This document shows positions 100 to 62,270 of a stretch of 64,000 bases of DNA, in pieces. Under the pieces are notes generated by a model. It saw only the letters and a program-made list of their open reading frames with translations. It did not search any database and had not been told where the DNA came from. Source of the stretch: Trichobilharzia szidati (lineage: Eukaryota; Platyhelminthes; Trematoda; Strigeidida; Schistosomatidae); NCBI GenBank assembly GCA_944472155.2, contig OX235275.1, positions 27,580,865 to 27,644,864 of the forward strand. Direction: 5' to 3'. The first letter of the stretch is position 1. Every line of letters begins with the position of its first letter. Position numbers and translations under genes: made by a program.

Positions 100-201
100 C
101 CAATCAGTAGCAAGATGTGAAATCACTCAACCAATAGTTAAAGCGGAATAACTTGGCCATTGATGATTCGTTTTGCCAACAACATCTGTTGCAGTATAAA
201 A
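100..201 (+). promoter_or_regulatory. Core promoter with two CCAAT boxes and a TATA box
   Basis: CCAAT occurs at 100-104 and again at about 131-135, and TATAAAA lies at 195-201. The TATA box sits about 35 bp before the start codon at 236, so the 5' untranslated leader would be very short. Spacing and order fit a compact RNA polymerase II promoter. Seen directly; use in transcription is inferred. Confidence 0.5.
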
Positions 202-235
202 GCACATGAATTATGCTAGGTCCAACGCATCCAGT

Positions 236-290
236 ATGAAGATCTATTGCTTCCTTTGTTTATTTCTGTTCGTCGTAATTCATGTTGGAG
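236..290 (+). CDS. MEG exon 1: start codon and signal peptide
   Basis: ATG at 236 opens MKIYCFLCLFLFVVIHVG plus one base of the next codon. The 55-nt coding part ends GGAG before the strong donor gtgagt at 291. The run of Leu, Phe, Val and Ile after a Lys makes a classical secretory signal. It is the only signal exon I see in the window; none of the duplicated units carries another copy. Confidence 0.72.
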
Positions 291-3200
291 GTGAGTAATT
301 ATTGAAACTAAATATTCACAATTATTTACCTTTATTATAATTACTATTTATTTTATTGCAATGATTAAGCCGATATTAAGCGAATGTGTTAAAATGATTA
401 TTTTTCCATATAGTTGAATTTTCTGAAAATGTGTAGTTGATGTCAACGTGTTGAGAAAAGCTTTCGAGTTAGTTAAATTAAAGATTGACATAGAAAACCT
501 GAACATTTTACCACATGCGTGAATGAAATCGTCGTCACTTTCCTTCGTTATTTCACTTCTTCACGTGTTTGATGAATCATGGCAAGAAAGTGAACAAGTC
601 CTTCTCATATATATCACTGTAATAATTATAATCGCTTGCCTCCTTCAAAAATGCACAATTAAAGAAACTGGTGAGGAATACAGTTTCATGCCCAGAGACA
701 TAACTGAATAACTGAAGACTGCGAATGGTTAGATTTTATTTCTCTAGAGCAGTGACAGTTTGCATCGAAAATCTGAGGAACAGTTATCTCGTTTGTTGAG
801 ATAAGTTGCCATTGACGATTATGTTTTTTCTCAAGTTTTGTGGGAGCCTGCAATCCAGTGGATTGTAGAAGTTCTATTGATACTCACAAGAATGGAAAAC
901 ACAATCAGAGTTCGAGATTTAATTGATTGAAGCAAAGTGAACAAGAGGAATTACAGGCAATATAATGATTGACGTTTTCGACAGCTCTGGTTTTCAGCTG
1001 GCTACCAGAACATTGTCACTTGGTGATACATACATGTAGATATACTTGCAGACTGAATTAATTTCAAGTACAGAGGTACTTAGCCGCCATTAACATTTGA
1101 TGATTAAAGCTGCTAGAACCTACTCAACCTATATGTAACGTGAGTTTTCAGTATTGGGTGGGGTGTGTTTTGCCTGTGTTCTTCGTAGCAAAGACGTAGA
1201 CTTGACTTGAAGTTACAGCTCAATCGTTTTCAGTATCAATTATTTGGATAATTATGACCATTGTTATTTTACCCGACAGTCTACAATATTTTGACAAGGG
1301 TGTGATTCCCATTTTATTTCAGATTTGAATCCCCTCGGTAAGAGGTTTGCGTGAGACACATACAAAAAGCAAACAGTGTCAGTTTCCAGACATGCCTAAG
1401 CCTAAATCCCAATCACAAAGCTATTCAGCTTTGATTTCCGGGATGGGATCAAGAAATCCACTACCTACTTTCATAAGATTCCAACGAACTTTGAAATATT
1501 ATCTTTCACTGAGTGATTTCTCACTTTCAAAAATGTTTTTTGAACGCAATAAGAATGAGCGAAGAAATAATCACCTGCAAAGTGAAATTCCCATACTTGT
1601 CACTACTGAAATAAAAACAACAATTTTACCAAACTAGTCAGGATAAATGTGGAAAAAAATATGAAAAGCAATTGACAAAAAGAGATTTCGGATTAAAAAT
1701 TAAAAAAAACCATCACTAGTTAAAACAAAGATTGAAATAAGACAAGATTAATTTATATATTATAAGGGAATGCAGCATCATAATTACTTATATTCATCCA
1801 GAAATGAATAATCCATATGCCAACCAAATGTATATATTCTCAACAGTGATATCTGTTAAAAACTTGATTCCCTCAGATGCTAGTGACTTCAGTGTGTGAG
1901 ACGTTCCGCTCACTGAAAGTTTTTCCAGGAAATGGGAAATGTCGATGAAGTTGAAGAGTTCTAAAAGTTCACACATTGAGTCAGTCCTAAAAGGTTACGG
2001 AATGATATTAACATATTTTAAGAAGACATTATTGTCGATTTGATGAACTTATGACTGTGAAGGATAAACTAATTCTCATTCAGATAGGTTCTTTGACAAA
2101 AATATAAATTTCGCACCAAGTGAGTAGGGAGAGAGATCCAAGAAAGAGTTTGTTCATGAGACTGTACGATCTGAGTGATAACACATTGCTTGAAGGGTGC
2201 GGTTGAAACAGCATACCGTGCAACCAAGGTCTCTTGTCTCTTCACAACTACTCAAATCTCACGTTCAGAAAATAAGGAGAACCAATCCTTATCTTCCCTT
2301 CTCTATATGTTTTTACTAGTTGGACTGTAGTTATGGACACTGCTACATTGGGCGTGCAATTAGGCTGGTGCATCATCATCATATAACCGAACATCATCCT
2401 GTGTGGTTCGGAAAGAGGCAAACAAGATCCATTCGTGGCACGCCTTGTAGCCAGTGAGAACAATGTTGATGTCCCTTGTCGCCCTCTGTCCATATCTCCA
2501 GTATATGCGTTACGTCATCCCAACTGCACGTGTGTGCTATTGAAACGATAAACAAAGCTTCATTACATCTACCGATGTTAATTTTAATTGCTGTCACCCT
2601 GTCTCACCCACCCTTTGTGTGATTACATTGAAGTGAACGCAGTGCAATGGCAGAGCTTTTCGCTATTTTATTTAACACCGCCTGTTCTATAATTCTGGGT
2701 CCAGCCAAATCTTGTTTCTCAGTTGATCTCGATCTACGTTTTCTCACCTATGCTACTTTTGGCCCCAATTTCATTACATGTTCTTTGGTAAACAATATGA
2801 TTTTTTGTAATCAGATCTACCGAGTCTCCAAGCTGACAAAGTGTACCTCTGAGAGAGTCGGTTGGTTTGAATATCACTTAATTTCAACCTCGATGAAAAT
2901 CGTACGTAATTCTTTTTTTGTACAGCAGTAGAATGGTGTCTTCGAATCTCATATTATTTCGTCATTTTTATTGCTAATCTTAGTTCTCCATTAGTATTTC
3001 ACATGTTTTGAGAGAATTCTGGTGAGCAAATATTCACTAGAAATACTTTATTTGTTTGATCTCATTATTTAGATCTTCTAGCTTGTCTCTTGATCGGGGT
3101 CAACTAGATTACTGAAAAATAAGATTAGGCTGGACCTGGAATTATAGAACAGGCTGAGTTAAATAACACAGAGAATAGCTCAGCCATCGCACTTCAGTTC

Positions 3201-6200
3201 AACATACTTTGAATGCACTGAATGCCATTTCAACTGCATCCTTCAGGGAATGTCTTACCACTTCGATAATGTTATTACTCAGATCGTACAGTCTCATGAA
3301 CAAACTCTTTCTTGGATCTCTCTCCCTACTCACTTGGTGCGAAATTTATATTTTTGTCAAAGAACCTATCTGAATGAGAATAAGTTTATCCTTCACAGCT
3401 ATAAGTTCACCAAATCGACAATAATGTCTTCTTAAAATATGTTAATATCATTCCGTAACCTTTTAGGACTGACTCAATGTGTGAACTTTTAGAACTCTTC
3501 AACTTCATCGACATTTCCCATTTCCTGGAAAAACTTTCAGTGAGCGGAACGTCTCACACACTGAAGTCACTCACATCTGCCAAAATCGATTTCTTGTTAT
3601 TTCTCATGTTAAAGAATATAGAGATTTTTCGAACACATGGATTGTTCATTCATGAAGCCATGTTAGGTTGAATTCTGTTTCCTGTTGTGGAGTTGCATAA
3701 AATACTGATCTTACTTTTCTTGATAGCTATGATTTTGTGTGAGCAGGTAATTGCAAGTAGAGCTCAGTTTCACACTGTTAGAATTCTATTGTTAAATCAA
3801 CAAATGAAAATTCCGCGAATATTTTCCGTATTCCTGATATCTTGTTGTTTGTCCAGGCATTCAATCCATTTTTCCATCAGACAGTGATGTTCAATTCGTA
3901 AACAGGAGATCAGCGTATACAAGTAGGTTACTAAAGTATAGTTGAGACACGCAATGCAACTGTTTGTTGACAGAGTTTGATAATGTAGTCAGAACATTTG
4001 GTTGAGAATAGTAATAAATTCAATAGACATTTTATGGATAGTAAACATCTTTATATCTATGCGTCTGCATTAACCTCGTCTAGTTCACTAGCTTTCTAGT
4101 TTTATTGCCAGTGTCAAGCCCAAGTAAAGAGGGAAGGTTTTGCGTGGGTCTAGCTACATTACACCGCTTAACCTATCAAACCAAGTGCGAAACTTCAATG
4201 CAAAAGAAACACATTTCAAATACAAAAGCTGCAAATGACAAAAATCTTATTCTTCGCTTGGATTAGAGAAGCGAAATAGCAAAGCGGACTGGTGGAAACT
4301 TTCGGGAAACAAATCAGTTTGGCGATGTTTCTTCTCTCGATGATTGTAAGAATAACAATGAGGACGTAGAATTTACGTACAGTGTACGAGACTGGGAAGG
4401 CCATGCAAGTAGCGAAATGGAAAAAATGTGGCTCAAAAGTGCTATGTTATTGTGAAAGCAGATTAAACAGATGTGGACTGGCTAAATTGCCAACTGGAGA
4501 GTCAGATGACAAATGCGAACACACTATAGGAGTGACTATTTTTATGTCACTAATGACAGCCAGTGCCCTTATGCAGTAGGAACAGATCTCATGCAGTGTC
4601 ATGACAGCAAGTTTCTACTCAAAAAGAAGGACGGTTACAATTATCCAATGCTTCGCACAAGGCTACACACATTGCAGAACAAGATATGAAGCAGGATTTG
4701 TATAGACAACTACAAATGGTCACGGACAACATCCTGAATGGGTACGTGGAAATCACAATGGGCGACATTAACTTCAGTCTCAGTAGGAAGAGATAATACA
4801 GGAAGAGAAGTCAATCATGGGTCGAGAGACAATAGTTCGGAGAAATGAATGAGAACGGAGAATCATTTGCAGACTTGTACCCTTTCAACAATTTGATGAT
4901 CGGAGGCAGTGTGTACAAGCAAAAGGACATACATAAAAAAACATGTATTTTACCTGACAGACACTTCGTTTATCAGATAGATTTGGTCCCAATGCTGCTG
5001 AAAAAGAGTGGAGAAGCAGCCTACAGGCGCAAATAATAATAAAAATTTGCTTTATTCCAAAACAGTACTTGTGATACAGAATGGAATTCTCAGCACTTTA
5101 CTACAGTATTGCGTCCAGTTAGTACATTATCAATAAATAAAATTATTCATAGATTAAGGGTAATCTCATTTAGTTTTGTGAACAACATATTAGCATATCA
5201 ATAGCAAAGCCAAAAGTGAACAGAATGTGTGATGGTGTTAGAAAAGTAGATACTAGCATATTTACTGGCGTAGGCGGTAACAAAACGGTCGAGATATACA
5301 GAGTGTGAAAGAATGAAGAAGAATGTATTAATTAGAGTTTGTAAGGAAGAGAGTAACAAAACAGCACACCACAAAAAAAGAAAAGGAAAAGGAAGAAATA
5401 AAACGTTGTATCTATAAATGATATGATTTGGAAAGACGAGATCCTGTTATTCTACTGACTATTTAATAAGTTATAGGTATCACGCCCAGTGCTTTCTTTA
5501 TCGCACAGAACACGAGCTAAGTAGGGTATGGTTGAGTTTTTGTACTTGCTAGTGCGAGCATATAGTTTTCTACATAGGCTTCTGGTTTTGCCCGATGAGA
5601 TACAAGGGGAGAGTTGTGAATCAAGAGGGTGGTGTGAGTAAGATAAAATGAATTTAGCTAATTTTTCACATGAGTCCAAGTACCTGTCAACCAGAATATT
5701 AAGAACACAATATTCAGAGAAGAGACTCTTTTCAATGAATTTATTATCAAGCTGTACAATCGTACACATGTGGTTTTTATAAAAATTATATCCGGTGAGG
5801 CAATTAGGTCAAAGGTGTGGATACATGAAATAGTAATAGTATGAAATGCAATTAAAATATTTGTGATTATAATCATAGTTTAATGTCAAATGGCACAATA
5901 ATTAATGTCGTATATAGAATAATACATAAGGTGTATAGATTTTGGAAAGGGGTACATAGTTATAGGATTAGTGGACGAATATAAAATGTTACATAACATG
6001 GTGTGAAATTTGAAAAGATAGAATTCATCCATACCGGAGATGAAATGGCGAGAATGAATATGTCACAAGAAACTTTTGGAACAAACCAACCAATAACCGA
6101 TCGGCCTAGACCCACGAGTGATATCTCAGTCGGGAGCGACGAGTGTATTGCCCTAGGGTGACATAAAGAAGATCATACAAGGAAAAGATGGGATGGTATG

Positions 6201-54200: not shown

Positions 54201-57200
54201 TTCTTCTTTATTTTGTTCTCAGCATTTTCTTTCGACTAATCCCTTCTTGCAATTCAAGATTTCCGTGCTGGCTTCAGGTTGATGAAGGCCTATTTTGAAT
54301 TGCCAATTCTGGCTGCTTTTGTCAGACTCATCCGTTATGCCTGTGGATGAAACGACACTCACAGTCAGACGTCATTCATTGACGGTGTTCCGTGCTGGTT
54401 GTTGTTGCTTTTGTGGATTGGTTATCCTCATCATCTTTGTTTTCTCTATTTCCACTTGAAATCCTGTCTTCGCTGCAAGTCGTCGAGTTTGTGAGACATT
54501 GGATATAAATGACCAGCGAAATTCAGATCTTCCAGAGACTTCTTGTCGCCTCAGCGTATTTCTGTCTCCCCCTTCGCCAATCACAATCTGACGTATAATC
54601 AAGTCCAACATTAATGAAAATAACATCGTTGAGCATGAACAGTTTTGTCTTTCCAAGGTCATGCGACTTAGCGCTAATAACAACATTATTCCACACCAGT
54701 CGGTTGTTGCAGGGGCCATATTCGCCCTTGTTTGGTGGCTTGAAAAGTTTACAGCCTTTCTCGCGATCGGTAGGCAACATTCCTTCTTTCCAGTTCATTT
54801 GCAACAATGGCGTCAGCATAACTGCTGCAGTCTCCGAGTGTGTTTTCAGTGCTCTGTGATGAATTCGTTCTGTTCACTCTTCATTCACGACTGAACTTTG
54901 ATGGGTTGATCGCATTCAAGATTTCCACTTTCGTTGAAGGATTGATATCTAATGGTCGGCAGTTATGAACGTGATATTGGTGGTACCTGTGAGCAAGTTG
55001 CAGGTGTTGGTCGACTCAAGAGTCCTTCACAGTGATCAGACCAGTGTTTTATTTGTTTCATCTGCTTGATAATTAAGTGCTTCTTAGCATCTTTCATTGG
55101 TTTCATTACCTGTATTGATCTCTTTCCGGATACAGACCTGGTTATCTGATATAGTGTCGCGCGGTCTGCTCAACCAGTGGTCTGCCTGTTCTGCTTTAGC
55201 TGACAGTGCGTTATAGAACTGTCGTTTCTCTTCCTTAGCACTCTGTCAAGCGAAGTCCACGTTGCTCTGTGTATATCCTTGTGCTTGTACACAGCACATC
55301 CGATCATCAAATCTCTGAAAGCGCAGAAGTCTGCAAATGATTCTCCGTTCTCATTCATTTCTCCGAGCTATTGTCTCTCGACCCATGATTGACTTCTCTT
55401 CCTGTATTATCTCTTCCTACTGAGACTGAGGTTAATATCGCCCATCGTGATTTCCACGTATCCATTCAGGATGGTGTCCGTGATTATTTGTAGTTGTCTA
55501 TACAAATCCTGCTTCATCTCTTGTTCTGAAATGTGTGTAGCCTTGTGCGAAGCATTGGATAATTGTAAACTTCCTTTCTTCATTCCGAGTGGAACCTGGC
55601 TGTCACAATCCAACCGGAGGAGACTGTCCACCACTGACATACTGCTCTGTCACCTATTAGGAAAATTATGAAAGTTATTCTCTGCCTCAGTGTCTTTGTG
55701 GTTGTCGTCAGGTCACCGAGAAGACAAACGATTACTGACACTCCAGTCGATAGTTTTGAGAGATCACATTCATTCTATCTGATGCAGCAGATTCCAAGCA
55801 TATGTATGCGGTATCTTCACATTACTTCGACTACCTGAACAGCTTTCGCAAACTCGTACATTGGACGTACATTTCACGTCCTCATTCTAATTCCTGCTGT
55901 CATCAGGAGAAGAGAGATAGGCTGATTGACTTCCTGAAGGCTTCCAATAGCCAGACTTATTACTGTCTACTGAATCCAGCAAATACAGAGCTTTTTTCAA
56001 ATTTTCGTGTATTTTCTCACATTGCTTGTGCAATAAATATTGCCCAGAAGTTTGATAGCTATGCGATTTAAAGTCGATAAACTCACTCCAAAATTACACT
56101 CTCCAGACAGGCTAGGTACAGGCTAGAAAACCAGCACAGCATTAATACAGGTGAGGCTAGAAATCCTAGTCTGTGACTGCACACAAACACCCACATGTGT
56201 TTCTCTTGCCACTGACGATACATTCTTACTTGCTTACAGACCAGTGGATGAAAATAAACGACAACACCATGAGTAAGACAATATACGATTTTAAATATTT
56301 ATAATATTGTGCAGTTTTGTGAGAGGAAGGAGGAGGAGTAGCCTATTTGAACTGCCATAACAATTTTGCAACTATATTTGACTAACGAACAATACGAATG
56401 AGAAATTCAAATCGAGGAATCAGTCAGAGGGGCAACTGAAATTCTAATCACAGGTGATTCTTCAAGCATTGTGATGTTGTACACCATCTGGTGTTCATAT
56501 GCCAAAGACATCAGTATTATTCAAAATGATTTCGGAATGCCACATTCGGAATACTTGAACACTCACGACGCTTCCAATAGACGAAAAAATAAGAAACACT
56601 GTATCAAGACACTTTCAACTAAAAGGGGATAGAGGGCGAAAACCATCAGGTATTCACGAGGAACAAAATGAAGCATTGTCCATCGGATCGCCGATCTCAT
56701 CAATAAAAGCTGACATATTCGTGGAGTTAAGGAACGAAAGTCCACCTGAACCATACACACCATCAACGGAGATGTTCAGATGACACGCGAGTAGTAGGAA
56801 GAAAGAATGATACTGATAGGATCGACTCACATATAAACAGTAGTCATGTAGACTCAATACAGAAATTCACTATATAAATAGAGGAAGAAATTAAGCAACA
56901 TCCCGTGCTAGCTGGACTGCATAGAAAAAATCTAACAGATGAGAGCGTAAGAATGTCGATATAACTAGAGGAGGTTCTGTCGTTATGTAACATTCAGCTC
57001 ATTTACTCACAGTAAAAGGAGGGTTGACACATGGTCTTGCAGACAGAATGTGCAGACTGACGAAGATGTGGAATTTGCAGGTTACTTACTTATGTCTACT
57101 ACGAGACAAGCTCGAGGACTTACAGGCTAAAACTTACAGACAAAGACAGGATCACACCTGAACATCAAGTGCCAGTCACCATCAACTGGATGGATTTCGA

Positions 57201-60200
57201 AGAGATCACCTCCCTCACTTGTACAGGAGGCATCACTACAACTTCAGTCACACAAGACGGATCCAGATGTGAATACCAGAAATGGAAGCGAAAGACAAAG
57301 CTTCATTACTCTGAAATCAGTTTGAAAATTGCCTGCACCCACTCAGCACAAGGAACAAGATTCGGATATTCAACACAAATGTTCAGTCAGTCAGTTCTTC
57401 TTCATGGGTCAGAGACATGGCGCCAGAGTCACGGGGGCATTTCTGACAGAATAATTTAGATCTCTACGAACAGCTGCCCCCTCCTCTGGCCATAGTAAGA
57501 AGATCAACTGGCCAACCTGAAAGAATTAGCAACAAGCGACCATGAGAAGGAACCAACAGGCGAGAACCTTCTGCTCAACAGATAGTTCGAAGTAAATGGA
57601 GAGCGATTGGACACAAGTGTATGAGACCATTGGATGACATCACGCGTCAGGCCATCACCAGAATGGAACTCGATTGATAAATGATGAGTGGAGATGGCTT
57701 CCGAGGGTTATATGTAGGAGACCGAGTGAGGATGACATCAAAAACTGAATGTCCAAATAATATGCGGGTCAGACGTCTAGATCATCATTGAAAATAAGAG
57801 CGAATGGACATATACGACTGACTAAGTGTTATCCAACAAGGAAACAAATGTACAATTATTCAGAAGAAAATTCGTCCACAGCTGCACATGCAGGGAACGA
57901 AATCCACAACATTGATTGTGACGAGATTTGCAATCTGGAATCTAATATGAACAAATGAAAAGAGAGACTAATAACGACGAGGTCTGTATTACTGAGAGAC
58001 GTCACGCTGGATACATGTGACAAGGCTGACTCCGCAGCACGACTGTCAGCGACCTGGAATATAATTCACGATACAGAAAACTGAGTGGACCGAATCTGAA
58101 CTAAGCACACACAAATGACTACAAATCACAAATGTGTGAATTGAAGCAAATATCAAAACAACAACTCATCATTGTGTGTAAACTATCGACATACAACTAC
58201 AATTATTCTGGTCTACTCCATAGTGCACAGACGTTCAACTGACATGAAATAATATCACATCACCAGCCGACACCATGTGCAGGAAATCGGCACGCATCGA
58301 AGTCAAGAAGGTGCTTTCAAGTGTCAAACAGTTGTTTTCTCAATATCTTCTGAAGAATATTGTGCGAAATTCGTTTCAATGTATTTCATATTGTACGTTC
58401 TGCGTAACTACACACAACAATTCTTTTGACAGAATACTTATTCCTTCTGAGAAATTCATCAACAAGTAAGCACATGTGCATTGAAATAATTTCATTTACC
58501 TGACTTCATAATCCATGGAAGTGGAATTTGGGAGACCAGCACCATTGTGTTCACTGGCTTTTCCCACCGTTTCCATGGGATACATTCTATCAATGAACAC
58601 CAAGATATTATTCATGATTCGCCCATCAGTTAGTCAGTTGATTCGATATTAGTCAGAATGTTTCGTGACTGCCTAACTACAGAAACACAGAGTTGCATCC
58701 ACTTGAGAAGGTATTTGTCGGTGAAACTGTGCACTGAACTTCAGTCGATCGCTGCGACAGAGATGAAGACGCATTCGCGAATAGTCTCCATCCAGACATT
58801 AGCGGAAATAAAAGCAAGCACGTAGTTCAGGTAACAGTTTCCTTTCGGAGACGAATTGACTCACTTAGCTCTACAGTGGAATTATTATTACAGAACCAGA
58901 TAACGCATGTGTCGAAATATTTGTGCATGCATCAGTTCAGATGTCACTGCAAATCACCTTCCGGCGATTTCTCAACGTGACTATAATCTTCATGACAGAA
59001 ACGCAATAATACTTCCACTTCCTTTACAGATGAATGGAATGAACTGAATAGAATTGTATTTGAATGTGAGTGATTTGAAATCTGGTTTAGAAATTTTCAT
59101 CTAGTTATCTTCCTGATGTTCTATGATGACATTTCTGACTTTCGATGCTGCACTTGTGTGGGTAATTGTATTAATTTCAGTGAAGAATTCGCCCTGAACC
59201 TGATCAGTGGATGAGTCACTGAATGAAAATATCAAGAGGCAAATGACGGATTTCTCCTGATTTGGGACCCGCCTCAGACCGCTGCAACAACAGCAACAAT
59301 ATCATCAATTGCACCAAGGATCGAACACGCCTCGTCCACGATGCTGCCACTAAGGTGGAATTCAGCAACCTATTGAATTCGAAAATTCTTACTCATAGAT
59401 CCGGGACTGTCAGTAACCAATGCCATAGATGACGATGACGCTGGCATTCACTGATTCAGTCTGAAAAATTGGTGTTGTTGTTTTTAAACAGCACTTCAAA
59501 GATAATAAGCAGTGACATTGTCATCTCATGGTGACATACAATTCGTTCACGAAACGGGATATGGCAGATTTTCCAGATATCTCCTTGATCCCATTAAACT
59601 AATCAACGCCTTCATCTAAGTCAAAGTGCAATTTTTTTATTTCATTTTCACAGATTTTCGAAAGAATAAGGCCTATGTTCTCAAAGGTAAGCAAGAAGCA
59701 ACCGAATTCATTATCTACTCGCTCGAGTAGTGAAAGTGTCTCGATTACACTACCTACCATCCCAGTATTCAAGGATACCAATTCATTGAGACAACAATGA
59801 CACAAGGCGAAAATAGAAAGTGTATTCGGTGGAATACAGTTGAGCTGTAAGACATGTAATACTTCGATTGGACACAGACTGATGTCATGCCTGTAATCCT
59901 TGGCGTTTGCTGCAGACTGAATTGTATCGGTCAAGTTTGCAATGTGGCCACCAACAAGCTGGGTGGATCTCCAGCACAGTGTACTCAGAATTCTTGTTAT
60001 CAGATGATTGGAGGCAATTGACAGGAGGCTTTCCTCGGCTCAGGCTTTCGTGCTTGTTGACTGACACTAGTCAGTTATGCAGTCCTGCAGGATGTCAGTC
60101 ACGGTTTCGAATAGCCGACTGGCTCAGTGTCGACGTCTGTGACTGCAGGAGGCATGAGATCTTTGAGGATCACAGATGCGCCTTGTTGACTGGTGACTGT

Positions 60201-62270
60201 CAACAAGCAGGAGATTTAGGTGAGTCAGGGCTTCTTTCAGATGTATCTGCACAACCACTTAATAATAAGAAATGTAATGGCGGTCGGTATATTCTGATTG
60301 GCATTTGAATGAGGCGAACTATGCATAGTCAAATGTTCTTTCAGACAAATAACTCACAAACACACTTCGAATTTCAACACACGAATGTAGTTTACAGGAA
60401 TGAGAATCAGTCGACACTAAGAAAGATTCAATTTGTGTTCATGGAGTCATATTCTGTACAATTTCGTAAGGTGTTATCGTTCGGATAGGCAGAGACGTGT
60501 CTATCAGTTAGTTGGAATGCTCGACACTTCAGTTGACGTAGTCATGAGAGAAGTTTACTGAGGCAGGCTGGTTGAAAGTAAAGGAAATATCTCAGTTTTA
60601 CACGGTTTTCGCAATCAATGCTGACTGTTTCGATCAAATTTGTGAAGAATCATGCCTGTGAGATCAACCGATGCCCTCTGTCCTAGGATCGTTCTCACTT
60701 ATGTGAAACTATCACATCCCACAGCAATCAGATGTGATGTGCCATGATTGATTGACTGATCTCATCAAAACTCACATGTATCAGCCGATATTTATACTTC
60801 AAAATATCATGCTATCATTTCATTCTACGTAACGTAACTTTCATGTCACTGCTTTCAATGGCCTCTGCCAAACACGTGACAACTCCTCTCCAATTGATTT
60901 CATTCTTTTCAGATGGTCCGAATGCAAGAGAGAAGCTTGAAAAAGCAGGTTTGTACACGTGGATTTTCTCCCTCTTCCTCTCCTTGTTCTGCTGCGTCAA
61001 TGTTCATTATACCCTCCTGAATCTGTATTGTCTGTTACCATAACATGATCCACTTGTCAGTTCATCCACCAGTAGTTCATCGATCAAACTGAGGATAACC
61101 TACTCGAACTACTCATTTTAACTCAACACATTTGGATGGAGAGTGTGTTTGTGCGAGTGATTCACTGACAGTCTACACCTACCCAGAATCTCCACTTGCA
61201 AAATAACCACGGTTTTCGCATGGAATTAAGATCCAAATAACATAGATACGCAGGCATGCATTCCGGCCAGCTTTGGCCGGCTTCCTGTGCCAATGAAATG
61301 GAGAAGCAGATTTCCTGAAGGCTCTTTCACAAAGTAAAGATTCATTTGACCCTACACATCAAGAGAGTGATTGAATCCAATAGATGAATAGAAGTTTGTG
61401 TTGGCGTAATTTGTAATCTGGATAGGTTGTTAGGAAGGAGTCGATTGTCTCGCCAGGCAGGATATTCAGCGTCGACTTTTCAGTTGAACCGTCCAGCTGA
61501 CAGTGAATTCAAGTACTGCGACTTCATTCACCGGAGGGCAGAATTCAAGCAACATTCTCATTTGTTTCCTAGAAAACTTTCATGTTGAGTATGAAGTAAT
61601 CAATTGCAGGGATAAGACTGGCAACACGACTGATCACGAGTCGAGAACCATTGAAAGATAAGCATGGCGGACTACACAGCTGTTTCGTCAGCCTAGTTTT
61701 CGGCTCATCGCCACTACACACATGCTCGCGTTGAAGACCAGAATAATTTGATAACGAGACGAGCTAATAGACATTTAAGCAACTATGATCGGCACCAAGA
61801 CTCATGAAAAACATCTTCTGTACTTTCAGAATGCGTAGTGAGCACAAGCGCCAGCCAGTGTGACAGGAGTGTAACTATCCTCTTGTCTGACGCGGTGTAC
61901 ATCACTGTCAACACTGGTGGTCGCACCACATGCGTGTCACGAGATGACGTGCGTTGGAATTCATGGAGCATTGAGTCAGGTGCCACTGGATTAGTGGTCT
62001 TTCAGCTTGCTTCATAACCGGAATGTGCCGGCTTCACACCTCTGCAGTGGATGTGTACTGCTGACGAGTACAAAACGGGGCTGGTGATATATCTGTCCGC
62101 AGTCACTGTTGGTTATGCAGTGCTTCTCTAACTGATGTGAACTCAAATTCACTCCTGTAACTTTCACAATACACTGTGAGAAAATCCAATACCAAACATT
62201 TCTATTAATTACTGATCAATTTGTCTCCTCTTTACAACTGATGCAGATTTCCTGAACAAATTTATGAATG
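236..62270 (+). CDS. Micro-exon gene (MEG-like), secreted protein; 39 predicted exons, 3' end beyond window
   Basis: Predicted spliced gene. Exon 1 encodes MKIYCFLCLFLFVVIHVG, a hydrophobic signal-peptide start, and ends in phase 1. Thirty-eight exons follow (one of 15 nt, five of 24, four of 30, seventeen of 33... in blocks ordered 36-33-33-36-33-36-24-30), each flanked by AG and GT, each a multiple of three, all phase 1, with no stop in the shared frame. Summed coding length is 1273 nt, i.e. 424 codons plus one base. This architecture (signal exon, then symmetric micro-exons of 36 nt or less) is the hallmark of schistosome micro-exon genes, whose products are secreted from eggs or gut/oesophageal glands. 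One complete block encodes 87 residues; the blocks are tandemly duplicated with their introns. I cannot name the family with confidence; MEG-2/ESP15-like is one possibility I could not test. No terminal exon or poly(A) signal was recognised before 64000. An alternative is that some duplicated blocks are unspliced relics. Confidence 0.68.
291..1322 (+). other. Intron 1 (AT-rich, no further gene seen)
   Basis: About 1 kb between exon 1 and the 15-nt exon. It contains one short 62-residue open frame (523-711) with no recognisable domain and no splice-site support. I see no repeats or other structure in it. Confidence 0.5.
1323..1337 (+). CDS. MEG exon 2 (15 nt), LNPL
   Basis: The acceptor attttatttcag has a good pyrimidine tract and the donor gtaagagg at 1338 is strong. 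The exon reads AT TTG AAT CCC CTC G in phase 1, so the junction codon with exon 1 gives Asp and the rest LNPL. It is single-copy in this window. It is the shortest exon in the model, so chance occurrence is harder to exclude. Confidence 0.5.
1790..3660. repeat. Fold-back (long inverted repeat) element in intron 2
   Basis: The stretch about 1870-2185 is nearly the reverse complement of about 3265-3572, and weaker similarity runs out to about 1790 and 3660. Both arms give the same shadow peptide beginning MCELLELFNFIDISHF on opposite strands. An inner pair, about 2600-2740 against 3085-3190, is also inverted. The left arm has about 375 bp of extra sequence (about 2226-2600), and the central spacer is about 2741-3084. 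The arrangement fits a fold-back DNA transposon relic or two head-to-head copies of one repeat. No transposase is visible. Confidence 0.7.
3661..4329. other. Intron 2 sequence without recognised features
   Basis: AT-rich DNA between the fold-back element and the RTE fragment. A candidate 20-nt exon at 3727-3746 has splice-like flanks but would break the frame. I see nothing else here. Confidence 0.4.
4330..5036 (+). mobile_element. RTE-type retrotransposon fragment, endonuclease part, plus strand
   Basis: Shifting plus-strand frames match the endonuclease of the fuller RTE copy at 30353-33413. About 4380 reads MYETGKAMQVAKWKK and CESRLNRCG (compare MYEAGNAAEIDT and CESRWNGCG). About 4690-4790 resembles DLYRQLQMVTDNILNGYVEI...MGDIN. 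About 4845-5036 reads MNENGESFADLYPFNNLMIGG. Frameshifts and stops make it a dead 5' fragment. It lies opposite in orientation to the neighbouring RTE relic at 6617-8462. Confidence 0.75.
5037..6501. other. AT-rich intron 2 sequence, nature unknown
   Basis: About 1.46 kb upstream of the 36-nt exon. It starts where the RTE endonuclease similarity ends and is very A/T-rich, especially 6150-6420. Short open frames on both strands (for example 5452-5769 minus and 6153-6401 minus) are low complexity and show no family. It may be part of a mobile element I do not recognise. Confidence 0.35.
6502..6537 (+). CDS. MEG exon 3 (36 nt), KPETTEPPVVT
   Basis: The acceptor gaacactacag and donor gtaagttg flank GA AAA CCG GAA ACA ACA GAA CCG CCA GTG GTG ACT T, in phase 1. 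The peptide is Thr/Pro-rich, a composition that often carries O-glycans. Homologous exons are at 17982-18017 and 43933-43968. The intron just downstream is cut at about 6617 by an RTE insertion. Confidence 0.72.
6617..8462 (-). mobile_element. Old degraded RTE-type retrotransposon, antisense (type 1 linker)
   Basis: Minus-strand frames give pieces of an RTE polyprotein: the end of the reverse transcriptase (about 6620-7120), then towards 8460 the endonuclease, with EDLYRQLQMVTDNILNGYVEI...MGDIN near 7804-8049. Stops and frameshifts are frequent. The left edge follows cacactccttgtaa, after which type 2 copies continue with different sequence, so this marks the junction. Homologous relics are in the type 1 linkers at 28998-34388 and 54140-56070, so the insertion predates the duplications. 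Confidence 0.78.
8636..8668 (+). CDS. MEG exon 4 (33 nt, type 1), RWMKITENTM
   Basis: The acceptor cttgcttacag and donor gtaagac flank AC CGG TGG ATG AAA ATA ACC GAG AAC ACC ATG A. Phase 1 and open. It differs from the later type 1 copies (34557, 56240) by Arg to Gln, Thr to Asn and Glu to Asp. Confidence 0.68.
9668..9700 (+). CDS. MEG exon 5 (33 nt), unit A, YLFLLRNSST
   Basis: The acceptor acatttcttttgatag precedes AA TAC TTA TTC CTT CTG AGA AAT TCA TCA ACA A, followed by gtaagcac. It lies inside a 64-residue open frame (9510-9704) that is in a different frame and that I regard as a shadow. Confidence 0.6.
10265..10300 (+). CDS. MEG exon 6 (36 nt), unit A, EWNELNRIVFE
   Basis: The acceptor cttccacttcctttacag has an excellent pyrimidine tract and the donor is gtgagc. 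Phase 1 and open through 11 codons. The same peptide is encoded in all five units. Confidence 0.68.
10902..10934 (+). CDS. MEG exon 7 (33 nt), unit A, FRKNKAYVLK
   Basis: The acceptor tttcattttcacag and the strong donor AAAG/gtaagc flank a basic peptide in phase 1. The peptide is invariant across all five units. Confidence 0.68.
12153..12188 (+). CDS. MEG exon 8 (36 nt), unit A, SPNAREKLAKA
   Basis: The acceptor tttcattcttttcag and donor CAG/gtttgt flank AT AGT CCG AAT ... AAA GCA G. Charged, helix-prone peptide in phase 1. Units A and B read LAKA; C, D and E read LEKA. Confidence 0.7.
13246..13260 (+). other. Possible cryptic 15-nt exon, unit A (CFIT)
   Basis: ggtctttcag precedes CTTGCTTCATAACCG, followed by a weak donor gtatct. 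It is phase 1 and open. The donor is gaatct in unit C and gaat in E, so if this is an exon it is not shared by all units. I left it out of the gene model. Confidence 0.2.
13487..13510 (+). CDS. MEG exon 9 (24 nt), unit A, FLNRFMN
   Basis: The acceptor gatgcag is preceded by a tctcctctt tract and the donor is gtgagc. It reads AT TTC CTG AAC AGA TTT ATG AAT G in phase 1. Confidence 0.64.
14014..14053 (+). repeat. Tetranucleotide microsatellite (AATG)n/(ATTG)n, unit A
   Basis: Tandem AATG followed by TGAT/GATT units, intronic. Copy numbers differ slightly between array units, so it could mark individual units. Confidence 0.85.
14172..15110 (+). mobile_element. RTE reverse-transcriptase fragment, plus strand, unit A core
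   Basis: Broken plus-strand frames read RIFINLIQQL, then a degenerate counterpart of the FADDL region, then DLQANVNKLAEE, which match the RT of the element at 30353-33413 (QIFINLIQQL, FADDL, NLQAKTDKLVEE). Further on is a connection-like part (SPGTRNKLQTLNTNV). Many stops; non-functional. Present at the same place in every unit, so it predates the array. Confidence 0.75.
15704..16221. repeat. MITE-like inverted-repeat element (~520 bp), unit A
   Basis: The left arm (about 15704-15905) and right arm (about 16020-16221) are reverse complements with scattered mismatches; both outer ends read tactgttcacg when oriented inward. No coding capacity. The shape fits a non-autonomous DNA transposon. 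Confidence 0.72.
16446..16475 (+). CDS. MEG exon 10 (30 nt), unit A, FGNDLSGLT
   Basis: The acceptor tttttcccactcttag and consensus donor CAG/gtgagtg flank AA TTC GGA AAC GAC TTG TCA GGC CTT ACA G in phase 1. The sequence is identical in all four visible copies. Confidence 0.72.
17982..18017 (+). CDS. MEG exon 11 (36 nt, type 2), IPETTEPPVVT
   Basis: The acceptor is cgaacactcctcag and the donor gtaagttg. Homologous to the 6502 exon, with GKP changed to DIP at the start; the ETTEPPVVT tail is unchanged. Confidence 0.7.
19044..19076 (+). CDS. MEG exon 12 (33 nt, type 2), SWMTVGNDIE
   Basis: The acceptor cttgtttacag and donor gtaagcg flank AT TCG TGG ATG ACT GTC GGT AAC GAT ATC GAA A in phase 1. 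It sits in the position of the type 1 33-nt exon; both start xWM, but the rest has diverged. Confidence 0.68.
19520..20200 (+). mobile_element. RTE 3' reverse-transcriptase fragment, plus strand, type 2 linker
   Basis: Broken frames read STRNKIRIFNTNVQSVLLHGSE across about 19770-19860, matching the SIKYKIRIFDTNVKSVFLYGSE part of the fuller RTE element. Upstream it begins near a DKLANLQAKT-like stretch. Fragmentary. Confidence 0.72.
20857..20889 (+). CDS. MEG exon 13 (33 nt), unit B, YLFLLRNSSI
   Basis: Same exon as 9668-9700 with ACA changed to ATA (Thr to Ile). The acceptor is ttgatag and the donor gtaagc. Confidence 0.6.
21454..21489 (+). CDS. MEG exon 14 (36 nt), unit B, EWNELNRIVFE
   Basis: Identical to the unit A copy, including its cctttacag acceptor and gtgagc donor. 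Confidence 0.68.
22091..22123 (+). CDS. MEG exon 15 (33 nt), unit B, FRKNKAYVLK
   Basis: Identical to the unit A copy, with cattttcacag before and gtaagc after. Confidence 0.68.
23342..23377 (+). CDS. MEG exon 16 (36 nt), unit B, SPNAREKLAKA
   Basis: Identical to the unit A copy. The flanking intron differs from A by single bases only, such as g to a in the intron after the donor. Confidence 0.7.
24435..24449 (+). other. Possible cryptic 15-nt exon, unit B (CFIT)
   Basis: Same candidate as at 13246, with acceptor tctttcag and weak donor gtatct. Not used in the model. Confidence 0.18.
24676..24699 (+). CDS. MEG exon 17 (24 nt), unit B, FLNRFMN
   Basis: Identical to the unit A copy; acceptor tgatgcag, donor gtgagc. 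Confidence 0.64.
25203..25242 (+). repeat. Tetranucleotide microsatellite, unit B
   Basis: AATG then TGAT/GATT units, intronic, matching unit A in position. Confidence 0.85.
25361..26300 (+). mobile_element. RTE reverse-transcriptase fragment, plus strand, unit B core
   Basis: Copy of the unit A fragment with the same breakpoints and nearly the same stops, so it was duplicated with the unit and did not insert independently. Confidence 0.75.
26893..27410. repeat. MITE-like inverted-repeat element, unit B
   Basis: Same element as at 15704-16221. The right end continues gtgaacagtaaccctaact, i.e. a TTAGGGTTA-type tip when reversed. Confidence 0.72.
27635..27664 (+). CDS. MEG exon 18 (30 nt), unit B, FGNDLSGLT
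   Basis: Identical to unit A, with cccactcttag before and gtgagtg after. It would splice directly to 34557 across about 6.9 kb of retrotransposon-rich intron, the longest intron in the array. Confidence 0.7.
28998..30352 (-). mobile_element. Old RTE relic, 3' half, interrupted by a younger RTE
   Basis: Antisense RT pieces homologous to 6617-7470. About 29400-29520 matches the relic at 6790-6900 almost base for base. The sequence stops near tgataattaggtgttctt, where the younger element begins, and resumes at about 33414. Confidence 0.72.
30353..33413 (-). mobile_element. Younger RTE-type (SR2/Perere-like) non-LTR retrotransposon, nested insertion
   Basis: About 3.06 kb, antisense to the MEG, inserted into the old relic: in the homologous relic near 55060-55090 the flanks (gataattaagtgcttctt and tttcattacctg) are only about 15 bp apart. 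Reading the minus strand it carries an endonuclease domain, a linker and a reverse transcriptase, with a few stops and frameshifts. It is the best-preserved mobile element in the window and absent from the other type 1 linkers, so it is the later insertion. No long terminal repeats are seen. Confidence 0.8.
30590..33340 (-). pseudogene. RTE polyprotein: endonuclease plus reverse transcriptase, degraded
   Basis: From the 5' side of the minus strand: IGTWNFRTMYEAG near 33300 is the first endonuclease motif. The open stretch 33105-32398 has VTVIQCYAPT, MGDMNAKLG and NQIDFIPIS, typical of APE-type endonucleases. 32385-31882 is the linker. 31757-31575 has GYLVKLPKKGD and the RT fingers. About 31500-31380 reads NFIDFEKAFDSVDREVIW. 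31337-30972 holds GVKQGCLLSP and the palm motif FADDL. 30975-30652 is the connection/C-terminal part with FLYGSE. Frameshifts between these pieces and stops such as that near 33180 show it is not intact. The protein would nick DNA and reverse transcribe element RNA if intact. Confidence 0.8.
33414..34388 (-). mobile_element. Old RTE relic, 5' (endonuclease) half
   Basis: Continuation of the relic interrupted at 30352, homologous to about 7510-8462 and 55110-56070. Minus-strand frames show MNENGELFADFCAF and related endonuclease pieces. The right edge, near cgatttaaagtcg, is shared with the other type 1 linkers. Confidence 0.75.
34557..34589 (+). CDS. MEG exon 19 (33 nt, type 1), QWMKINDNTM
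   Basis: The acceptor cttgcttacag and donor gtaagac flank AC CAG TGG ATG AAA ATA AAC GAC AAC ACC ATG A. Phase 1; three residues differ from the first type 1 copy at 8636. Confidence 0.68.
35575..35607 (+). CDS. MEG exon 20 (33 nt), unit C, YLFLLRNSST
   Basis: As in unit A, but the last base is G, giving the stronger donor context CAG/gtaagc and turning the next junction codon from Asn to Asp. Confidence 0.62.
36172..36207 (+). CDS. MEG exon 21 (36 nt), unit C, EWNELNRIVFE
   Basis: Unchanged from units A and B; acceptor cctttacag, donor gtgagc. Confidence 0.68.
36809..36841 (+). CDS. MEG exon 22 (33 nt), unit C, FRKNKAYVLK
   Basis: Exon unchanged; the upstream pyrimidine tract here is ctttttatttcattttcacag. 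Confidence 0.68.
38070..38105 (+). CDS. MEG exon 23 (36 nt), unit C, SPNAREKLEKA
   Basis: GCC has become GAA (Ala to Glu) and GAA has become the synonymous GAG relative to units A and B. Acceptor cattcttttcag, donor gtttgt. Confidence 0.7.
39404..39427 (+). CDS. MEG exon 24 (24 nt), unit C, FLNKFMN
   Basis: AGA has become AAA (Arg to Lys) relative to A and B. Acceptor tgatgcag, donor gtgagc. Confidence 0.64.
39931..39967 (+). repeat. Tetranucleotide microsatellite, unit C
   Basis: AATG run shortened and GATT run extended relative to A and B; the intervening GGATG is missing. Confidence 0.85.
40084..41035 (+). mobile_element. RTE reverse-transcriptase fragment, plus strand, unit C core
   Basis: Same fragment as in unit A with extra substitutions around 40540-40720, several of them shared with unit E. 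Confidence 0.75.
41617..42135. repeat. MITE-like inverted-repeat element, unit C
   Basis: Same inverted-repeat element as in A and B, with both arms intact. Confidence 0.72.
42360..42389 (+). CDS. MEG exon 25 (30 nt), unit C, FGNDLSGLT
   Basis: Identical to the other copies although the intron just upstream has several substitutions (for example ttaaactaagtgattttc). Confidence 0.72.
43933..43968 (+). CDS. MEG exon 26 (36 nt, type 2), NPETTEPPVVT
   Basis: The acceptor cgcacactacag and donor gtaagttg flank GA AAT CCG GAA ... ACT T. Third variant of this exon: Lys, Ile and Asn are found at the same position in the three copies. Confidence 0.7.
44995..45027 (+). CDS. MEG exon 27 (33 nt, type 2), SWRTVGNDIE
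   Basis: Copy of 19044 with ATG to AGG (Met to Arg) and a synonymous GGT to GGC. Acceptor cttgtttacag, donor gtaagcg. Confidence 0.68.
45850..46510 (+). mobile_element. RTE 3' reverse-transcriptase fragment, plus strand, type 2 linker
   Basis: Copy of the fragment at 19520-20200. It holds a 96-residue open stretch (45930-46220) with SQSVLLHGSETW in one frame, but flanking stops show it is a relic. Confidence 0.72.
47194..47226 (+). CDS. MEG exon 28 (33 nt), unit D, YLFLLRSSSA
   Basis: The most diverged copy of this exon: Asn to Ser, Thr to Ala, plus a synonymous change. The acceptor has improved to ttgacag and the donor context is CAG/gtaagc. Confidence 0.64.
47791..47826 (+). CDS. MEG exon 29 (36 nt), unit D, EWNELNRIVFE
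   Basis: Unchanged exon; acceptor cctttacag, donor gtgagc. Confidence 0.68.
48428..48460 (+). CDS. MEG exon 30 (33 nt), unit D, FRKNKAYVLK
   Basis: A synonymous CTC to CTA change only; acceptor cattttcacag, donor gtaagc. Confidence 0.68.
49690..49725 (+). CDS. MEG exon 31 (36 nt), unit D, GPNAREKLEKA
   Basis: AGT has become GGT (Ser to Gly) compared with unit C. The acceptor tract has changed to tttttattattttcag but is still good. Confidence 0.7.
51024..51047 (+). CDS. MEG exon 32 (24 nt), unit D, FLNKFMN, weakened acceptor
   Basis: The exon body matches unit C, but the acceptor is gatgaag where every other copy has gatgcag. AAG is a poor 3' splice site, so this exon may be skipped; because it is 24 nt the frame would survive. 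Confidence 0.5.
51551..51590 (+). repeat. Tetranucleotide microsatellite, unit D
   Basis: AATG and GATT units as in A and B, with the GGATG interruption. Confidence 0.85.
51707..52010 (+). mobile_element. RTE reverse-transcriptase fragment, truncated, unit D core
   Basis: Only the first third of the fragment remains. It ends near gcacaatctgatgttaaatcc, where the other units continue with the rest of the RT. Confidence 0.7.
52038..52557. repeat. MITE-like inverted-repeat element, unit D
   Basis: Here the left tip reads ctaggtttactgttcacg and the reversed right tip ttagggttactgttcacg, the best match between ends of any copy. The 1.2 kb deletion ends about 25 bp outside it. Confidence 0.72.
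52782..52811 (+). CDS. MEG exon 33 (30 nt), unit D, FGNDLSGLT
   Basis: Identical to the other copies; acceptor cccactcttag, donor gtgagtg. The next exon in the model is 56240, skipping over another old RTE relic. Confidence 0.72.
54140..56070 (-). mobile_element. Old degraded RTE-type retrotransposon, antisense (type 1 linker, uninterrupted copy)
   Basis: Homologous to 6617-8462 and to the two halves around the younger element. It shows the pre-insertion state: gataattaagtgcttcttagcatc runs straight into tttcattacctg near 55060-55110. Minus-strand pieces include MNENGESFADFCAF (55358 downwards). Confidence 0.77.
56240..56272 (+). CDS. MEG exon 34 (33 nt, type 1), QWMKINDNTM
   Basis: Identical to the exon at 34557, with cttgcttacag before and gtaagac after. 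No 36-nt ETTEPPVVT exon precedes it in this linker. Confidence 0.68.
57090..57745 (+). mobile_element. RTE 3' reverse-transcriptase fragment, plus strand, hybrid linker
   Basis: Near-identical to 45850-46510, including the open stretch with SQSVLLHGSETW. It arrived as part of the type 2 tail of the hybrid linker. Confidence 0.72.
58433..58465 (+). CDS. MEG exon 35 (33 nt), unit E, YLFLLRNSST
   Basis: Coding sequence as in unit A, but with the ttgacag acceptor found in unit D. Confidence 0.62.
59030..59065 (+). CDS. MEG exon 36 (36 nt), unit E, EWNELNRIVFE
   Basis: Synonymous ATC to ATT change only; acceptor cctttacag, donor gtgagt. Confidence 0.68.
59654..59686 (+). CDS. MEG exon 37 (33 nt), unit E, FRKNKAYVLK
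   Basis: Unchanged exon; acceptor cattttcacag preceded by a long T tract, donor gtaagc. Confidence 0.68.
60913..60948 (+). CDS. MEG exon 38 (36 nt), unit E, GPNAREKLEKA
   Basis: Same coding sequence as unit D, while the upstream intron resembles units A and B (caattgatttcattcttttcag), a mosaic pattern. Confidence 0.7.
62247..62270 (+). CDS. MEG exon 39 (24 nt), unit E, FLNKFMN
   Basis: Last exon of the model inside the window, with the normal gatgcag acceptor and gtgagc donor. The reading frame is still open in phase 1. Confidence 0.64.

Follow-up and report, generated by a model that had tools for sequence, protein, structure and literature searches.

Micro-exon genes (MEGs) are a puzzling class of secreted genes in parasitic flatworms, and in Schistosoma many of them are active in the oesophageal glands. 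As the class has been defined, they have at least seven exons, half or more of which are micro-exons (shorter than 70 nt, length a multiple of three) in runs of four or more (PMC7653826). Published accounts of Schistosoma MEGs describe a first exon that encodes a signal peptide, a core of symmetric micro-exons, a location in clusters and a secreted, fast-changing protein (PMC4671649, PMC4350168), and note that exons can be skipped without a frameshift (PMC4350168, PMC4671649). In S. mansoni, MEGs are reported to contain 10-20 short exons, and the longest protein in a set of 87 has 189 residues (PMC10526429). Three other systems bear comparison: the 10.3 antigen (MEG-4), whose tandemly repeated exons are reported to encode 81-base repeats (Davis 1988, cited in PMC4015677); SmVAL6, with 38 exons, the smaller ones alternatively spliced and the largest encoding conserved VAL motifs (PMC4015677); and a Hymenolepis microstoma MEG family said to have grown by tandem duplication, with ten separate genes in one region (PMC7653826). 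Within Trichobilharzia, counterparts of MEG-4 and MEG-8/9 have been reported in T. regenti (PMC5825161), as have 10 MEG transcripts from T. szidati and four from T. regenti, some of them not close to those of S. mansoni (PMC6362228).

The window considered here is the whole stretch of 64,000 nucleotides that was analysed: bases 27,580,865-27,644,864 (forward strand) of contig C5 (68.6 Mb) of the T. szidati genome, which was searched as 1.11 Gb in 907 contigs. T. szidati is a bird schistosome, associated with swimmer's itch; a preliminary description of the stretch in terms of schistosomes holds for the family, while the genus is Trichobilharzia and not Schistosoma. We consider it highly probable, from comparison of sequences, that this stretch carries most of one very long protein-coding gene of MEG type. 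Like the Schistosoma MEGs, it combines a signal-peptide exon with symmetric micro-exons no longer than about 36 nt and sits in a gene cluster; where the S. mansoni MEGs have 10-20 exons, the model here has about 60 predicted exons over about 91 kb, with an eight-exon block present six times plus two older copies, which bears out the preliminary description of the locus as unusually long and exon-rich for a MEG. The 10.3 antigen/MEG-4 is likewise a MEG whose transcripts contain tandem repeats, but its exons encode an 81-base repeat, whereas the predicted unit here is a block of 11-15 kb with eight different micro-exons. SmVAL6 shares the large number of exons and differs in its VAL motifs; the one-unit product predicted here has zero Pfam domains over cut-off. 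The H. microstoma clusters reflect duplication of whole genes, whereas here blocks within the gene have been duplicated as well. The overall design therefore fits the schistosome MEGs, and the novelty is one of size and of repeated exon blocks; among the best-matching open-licence papers, as judged by their titles and the openings of their abstracts, none describes this array.

Exon model and repeated units

Exon calls were made with general splice-site weights, not fitted to T. szidati, and yield a window model of 40 exons: exon 1 plus 39 short exons (15-42 nt) that together would encode 438 aa. This count excludes a doubtful family, j, whose five 33-nt candidates would raise the total to 45. 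The array runs on to about coordinate 91,350, some 27 kb past the end of the window, so that the whole model (without j) comprises 60 exons and 2,038 nt, or 679 aa with zero stops if all are joined; its introns measure 380-6,892 bases (median 1,298). With the 27 kb downstream and with j included, the extended model has 66 exons and a stop-free joined frame, and all 65 exons after exon 1 have AG/GT borders and lengths divisible by three. The preliminary description had listed 38 short exons of 15-36 nt between 236 and 62270. Both limits are exact, and the AG/GT borders, the common phase 1 and the divisibility by three hold; the size range does not, exon 3 being 42 nt long, and the rebuilt model has 39 short exons beside exon 1.

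All 59 predicted exons after exon 1 (without j) qualify as micro-exons in the sense of the MEG definition, being 15-57 nt long and divisible by three. Exons of 36 nt or less supply 1,788 of the 2,038 nt of the coding model (1,218 of 1,315 nt inside the window), and the 5' exon carries a signal peptide, predicted from a hydrophobic core. The MEG-type design proposed earlier is thus what the predicted exons display. The features in the window are as follows; P0121-P0126 are database proteins treated below, and "loci" are this gene and seven paralogs.

195..202, +: TATA-box-like element TATAAAAG, 41 bases upstream of the ATG
236..290, +: exon 1, predicted signal peptide MKIYCFLCLFLFVVIHVG; ends in phase 1, then GTGAGT; open in 8/8 loci
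1323..1337, +: exon 2, 15 nt, DLNPL; both splice sites retained in 8/8 loci
3881..3922, +: exon 3, 42 nt, DSDVQFVNRRSAYT; near-identical in P0121, diverged in P0122-P0126
6502..6537, +: exon g0, 36 nt, KPETTEPPVVT; family g, seen in P0121 and P0123
8636..8668, +: exon f0, 33 nt, RWMKITENTM; family f, RWMKINDNTM in P0123
9363..19525, +: unit A (a b c d i e g f), by self-comparison
9668..9700, +: A-a, 33 nt, YLFLLRNSST; family profile, counterpart in 27.91 Mb paralog
10265..10300, +: A-b, 36 nt, EWNELNRIVFE; family profile, counterpart in 27.91 Mb paralog
10902..10934, +: A-c, 33 nt, FRKNKAYVLK; family profile, counterpart in 27.91 Mb paralog
12153..12188, +: A-d, 36 nt, SPNAREKLAKA; family profile, counterpart in 27.91 Mb paralog
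13487..13510, +: A-i, 24 nt, FLNRFMN; family i, counterpart in 27.91 Mb paralog
16446..16475, +: A-e, 30 nt, FGNDLSGLT; family profile, counterpart in 27.91 Mb paralog
17982..18017, +: A-g, 36 nt, IPETTEPPVVT; family g, weak acceptor
19044..19076, +: A-f, 33 nt, SWMTVGNDIE; family f
20857..20889, +: B-a, family profile
21454..21489, +: B-b, family profile
22091..22123, +: B-c, family profile
23342..23377, +: B-d, family profile
24676..24699, +: B-i, family i, extended model
27635..27664, +: B-e, family profile
34557..34589, +: B-f, QWMKINDNTM; family profile, downstream of an intronic retrotransposon
35575..35607, +: C-a, family profile
36172..36207, +: C-b, family profile
36809..36841, +: C-c, family profile
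38070..38105, +: C-d, SPNAREKLEKA; family profile
39404..39427, +: C-i, family i, extended model
42360..42389, +: C-e, family profile
43933..43968, +: C-g, NPETTEPPVVT; family profile
44995..45027, +: C-f, SWRTVGNDIE; family profile
47194..47226, +: D-a, YLFLLRSSSA; family profile
47791..47826, +: D-b, family profile
48428..48460, +: D-c, family profile
49690..49725, +: D-d, GPNAREKLEKA; family profile
51024..51047, +: D-i, family i, extended model
52782..52811, +: D-e, family profile
56240..56272, +: D-f, QWMKINDNTM; family profile
58433..58465, +: E-a, family profile
59030..59065, +: E-b, family profile
59654..59686, +: E-c, family profile
60913..60948, +: E-d, family profile
62247..62270, +: E-i, family i, extended model; final exon within the window
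11489..11521, +: doubtful exon j of unit A, 33 nt, open with AG/GT, not among the 40; also at 22678, 37396, 49015 and 60241

The 5' end is conserved. TATAA stands at -41 in 8/8 loci read (TATAAAAG in seven and TATAAGAG in one; four further exon-1 copies lie outside this count), the start MKIYCFL of exon 1 recurs in P0121-P0123, and the DLNPL peptide is present in P0121 from T. regenti. Two candidates in this part were rejected: a 36-nt segment at 2084-2119, which aligns as such in just one (L005) of the seven other loci and is in none of P0121-P0126, and a 66-nt form of exon 3 (3857-3922), P0121-P0123 fitting the shorter 3881-3922. Between exons 2 and 3 lies an inverted repeat of about 450 bases (1803-2236 and 3200-3650, 86% identity) that is also found in the 27.91 Mb paralog.

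After f0 begins a tandem array with the block order a-b-c-d-i-e-g-f, in six near-identical units and two older, incomplete ones. By self-comparison five units start inside the window, at 9363, 20552, 35270, 46889 and 58128, and a sixth downstream of it, at 72026; the starts are spaced 11-15 kb apart, and pieces longer than 1 kb match unit A at 92-98% identity. The earlier suggestion of an internal block amplified about five-fold is right as to the amplification and low as to the number. Exon lengths per unit are 33 (a), 36 (b), 33 (c), 36 (d), 24 (i), 30 (e), 36 (g) and 33 nt (f), with g absent from units B and D in the model. Past the window, exons e, g and f of unit E lie at 65216, 66813 and 69618, and the first exons of the two older units, of type c or b, are at 83,161 and 87,870. 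These units are followed at 91,300 by a basic exon that resembles the end of P0121 and is a candidate for the longer closing 3' exon, which would carry the stop and the poly(A) signal.

Family j is open with AG/GT in 6/6 recent (type-1) units, the AG is missing in the eight diverged copies aligned over the full length of j, and none of P0121-P0126 contains the j peptide; whether a newborn exon or a look-alike, its standing is doubtful. Family h (28598) was excluded from the model on account of a stop in the unit D copy, and the candidates at 14634, 14877 and 15025 were rejected as lying inside a dispersed repeat. The intron between e and f of unit B houses a broken non-LTR retrotransposon (29385-33165, minus strand), with a reverse transcriptase (PF00078) over cut-off and an endonuclease (PF14529) under it; related pieces occur near 4602, 7639 and 55242. 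Antisense to exon c, on the minus strand, runs a stop-to-stop frame of 155 codons (10847-11314 in unit A, 22036-22503 in unit B); the unit A frame has zero Pfam matches at E<=0.01.

Splice signals and the case for one gene

The preliminary description had argued that so many short segments could hardly keep phase and openness by chance. As worded, this argument fails: the bare rule (AG, 15-36 nt, length divisible by three, phase 1 open, GT) picks out 1,305 segments in the window and 1,246-1,327 in five dinucleotide shuffles, and because these counts match, phase and openness alone prove nothing. The strength of the splice sites, on the other hand, does separate the array from its shuffles. In the non-redundant first 20,551 bases (acceptor>=6, donor>=5.5, 15-42 nt), 10 open segments have a length divisible by three, whereas 200 shuffles averaged 0.95 such segments, peaked at 4 and never reached 10. 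With acceptor>=6 and donor>=6 over positions 1-92000 of the plus strand, all 40 candidates divisible by three (mostly mutual copies) are open in phase 1, whereas the other two phases give 18 and 16; the same thresholds also return 26 candidates whose length is not divisible by three.

Retention in diverged copies points the same way. Where copies have diverged by 14-17% (two units, neighbouring gene), 3/3 exons are intact in each, compared with 25/70 control segments; the figures are 7/7 and 58/102 for the 27.91 Mb paralog, and 6/6 and 42/70 among the six recent units. These counts take in the exons inside aligned stretches (b, at the edge of one stretch, is uncounted there), and the advantage in splice-site retention over bare controls is modest. 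Family profiles run over 200 kb found every copy open with AG/GT and the family length for a (6/6), b (14/14), c (16/16), d (13/13), e (6/6) and f (14/14). Family i is intact in 8/8 copies and g in 11/12, the exception having a GG acceptor, with eight weaker g-profile matches that lack such an exon; family m, which lies mainly in the neighbouring gene and outside the model, is intact in 6/8. The unequal copy numbers of the families imply that some units lack certain members.

Could the segments be splice-like by chance or derived from transposons, with no gene at all? The chance numbers returned by the bare rule, and the retrotransposon pieces in the introns, are what such an origin would predict. 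We nevertheless regard it as close to negligible in probability: exons 1 and 2 are conserved, and the same exon strings appear in database proteins, P0121 and P0123 contradicting this origin unless the models are wholly artificial.

A second question is whether the units are several separate genes, each with its own promoter and another, unrecognised first exon. The 11-15 kb between unit starts leave sufficient room, and a first exon of low similarity or of a non-hydrophobic type would escape a scan. The scan itself (ATG, hydrophobic stretch and phase-1 donor; plus strand, 92 kb) returned exon 1, with two nested ATGs, as its sole match, in agreement with the single signal exon described earlier, and a 601-base exon-1 query had no other match within the array among the best 40 candidates scored. 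Since proteins spanning several units are also in the database, from the paralog and from T. regenti, separate genes seem very unlikely. By comparison of sequences, the same multi-unit proteins favour the earlier proposal of one gene.

Related proteins and predicted product

A one-unit product (134 aa) used as query retrieved two proteins at E<=1, out of five candidates in all, and a 419-aa query four more at E<=1 among its best 8,000 candidates; both queries included family j, and the searches depended on shared 5-residue words. All matches at E<=1 in these word-based searches were Trichobilharzia proteins. P0121 (T. regenti A0AA85ISH6, 213 aa) aligns along the entire one-unit query (100% coverage, E=4.5e-29) and reads as x1-x2-x3-n-o-b-c-d-i-g-f-a-b-c-d-basic end. 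In a permissive tblastn, its x1, x3, n, o, b, c, d, g, f, a and basic end fall at separate spots in the 200-kb region, with single E-values that are mostly weak; x2 and i had no match on their own. The first two exon peptides of P0122, an unnamed product of T. szidati, agree with the copies at 5.87 and 6.59 Mb, which were the two read; three others lie nearby.

P0123, also an unnamed T. szidati product (239 aa; 55% identity over 59% of the query, E=1.5e-74), shares its exon 1 with the 27.907 Mb copy. Its exon 1 and 10 distinct further exons map in order, with AG/GT, to the 27.91 Mb paralog, a mapping that spans the first 134 of its 239 residues (20 kb of paralog DNA). It contains two d-i-e blocks and lacks j, exon 2, and a and b before the second c; the splice sites of exon 2 are intact at its locus although the model omits the exon. 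The model ends in a g exon followed by CKLANN, and because the homologous g frame in our gene likewise runs into its intron, we judge this 3' end to be probably wrong, a g exon read into its intron. P0124-P0126, all from T. regenti, agree at both ends but are set apart by the absence of blocks of 66 and 103 aa, the latter corresponding in these database models to one whole unit. Beside A0AA85ISH6, the uncharacterized T. regenti proteins of the family are A0AA85IYH5, A0AA85IS33 and A0AA85ISU3. Together with A0AA85ISH6, P0122 and P0123, these belong to the same family and have the same order of exon peptides as our gene, but hold roughly one to three units against about eight here, and their displayed names do not include "MEG."

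These proteins bear on a third possibility: that only part of the array is used, in a short MEG made of exon 1 and one or two units, with the other units passive copies left by recent segmental duplication. Exon divergence equal to intron divergence in the comparison with the 27.91 Mb paralog would suit this, as would the limit of 189 residues in the 87 S. mansoni MEG proteins as reported (PMC10526429) and the exons that P0123 passes over (exon 2 despite its intact sites; a and b before the second c). Against this, the copies of a-f in the six recent units keep their AG/GT, length and openness, and both P0123 and P0124 span more than one unit. On balance we find partial use unlikely, though less so than either possibility above, and prefer a single long gene.

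Neither query retrieved a protein closely similar to the gene itself: with the best 8,000 candidates scored for the 419-aa query, identity reached 55% at most. This, together with the probably wrong end of P0123, suggests that short-exon arrays this large get missed or truncated in automatic annotation. Pfam gave zero domains over cut-off in P0121-P0126 and in the one-unit product, a PDB search with P0124 gave one match that is not meaningful (E=0.74), and Rfam (gathering scores) and ARAGORN (bacterial code) gave zero matches in the window. The blue-clade motif described for S. mansoni, which follows the signal peptide (PMC10526429), is absent from the model and from P0121-P0124, and the first red-clade motif (PMC10526429) is absent from the model; the four other red-clade motifs are excluded because they contain cysteine and the mature part of the model has none. 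The predicted structure of P0123 has a mean pLDDT of 36.9 (six-sequence alignment), and the gene product is predicted to be largely unstructured.

For the single long gene, we propose that a single TATA-type promoter and a single signal-peptide exon ending in phase 1 would serve the whole tandem array as one transcription unit. Since all predicted exons downstream of exon 1 share one phase and have lengths divisible by three, exons or entire blocks could be skipped from the mRNA without a frameshift; the differing blocks of P0124-P0126 and the absence of exon 2 from P0123 are features of database models. Skipping is not wholly free: with family j counted, 194 of the 2,145 possible forward pairs of exons would give a stop where the two join, always with an upstream exon of b, g or j type, all of which end in T. 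The products would be secreted, largely unstructured proteins that share a signal peptide and vary in how many repeated peptide segments they carry; that they are secreted and act at the host interface may be expected by analogy with the MEG class.

Paralogs, divergence and block number

The gene has many relatives on C5. Exon-1 regions occur at no fewer than 12 places at 77-100% identity over about 600 bases, with at least three additional shorter matches over exon 1 (best 40 of 92 candidates). The exon c region occurs at 40 or more places (best 40 of 51 candidates), all on C5; assigned to genes by position and strand, these would be eight in this gene, nine in a convergent gene starting at 27.79 Mb, four each in genes at 27.91, 27.50 and 28.16 Mb, four near 27.35-27.37 and three near 27.39-27.42 Mb, and one each near 27.99, 28.56, 6.89 and 5.78 Mb. 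The number of units thus differs among paralogs: of the dozen or more C5 gene copies, some have a few blocks (at least three to four, where position allows a count) and others eight or nine. Family DNA was read over 200 kb, a further 20 kb and the short exon-1 loci.

Together, the 3' sides of this gene and its convergent paralog make up a large inverted repeat with interruptions (C5:27,672,300-27,705,700), whose arms measure about 15-17 kb, with 91-98% identity in aligned pieces and a centre near 27.690 Mb. Elsewhere in the assembly, the mitochondrial contig C907 holds COX1 twice (L029/L030), 14.2 kb apart and with equal score, and appears to have been assembled more than once round. This COX1 matches the T. 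szidati protein of 511 aa at 100% identity, S. japonicum being the next named species at 82%.

Between unit types, phase and splice sites are kept while the peptides are altered (EWNELNRIVFE/RRNQLGKFAFE, SPNAREKLAKA/GRNSGAKNLKS, SWMTVGNDIE/YWLNMSENNE). With six exons pooled, exons differ at 55/198 positions and introns at 288/1325 (Fisher p=0.037), 0/6 single exons falling below p 0.05; NG86 gives dN 0.49 and dS 0.27 for b, c, d, f and i, and one within-gene pair of f exons differs at 18/33 as against 54/208 positions (p=0.0013). In the comparison with the 27.91 Mb paralog, nine exons differ at 23/303 positions and introns at 150/1902 (NG86 dN 0.068, dS 0.089). Exons evolving "faster than introns" were accordingly rejected as proof of positive selection, there being no exon excess in relation to this paralog. 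Since exons diverge as fast as introns there, constraint at the protein level is weak, perhaps with diversification in places. Among the six recent units, one peptide form each is seen for b, c and e, 2-3 for a, d and i, and several for f and g; uniform b, c and e beside variable f and g suggest an array that multiplies more than it diversifies.

A tentative extension, which we hold to be possible but short of probable, is that block copy number is itself an evolving trait, with the blocks kept uniform by unequal exchange or gene conversion and splicing reading a variable number of them. If so, worms, or mRNAs within one worm, would secrete repeat proteins of variable length from one promoter; in Dscam the repertoire comes from alternative variants, whereas here it would come from the length of the array. 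A block multiplied to different extents in neighbouring paralogs offers a direct test of how MEGs grow, and the family may serve to test whether MEG variation stems from new sequence or from repeat number.
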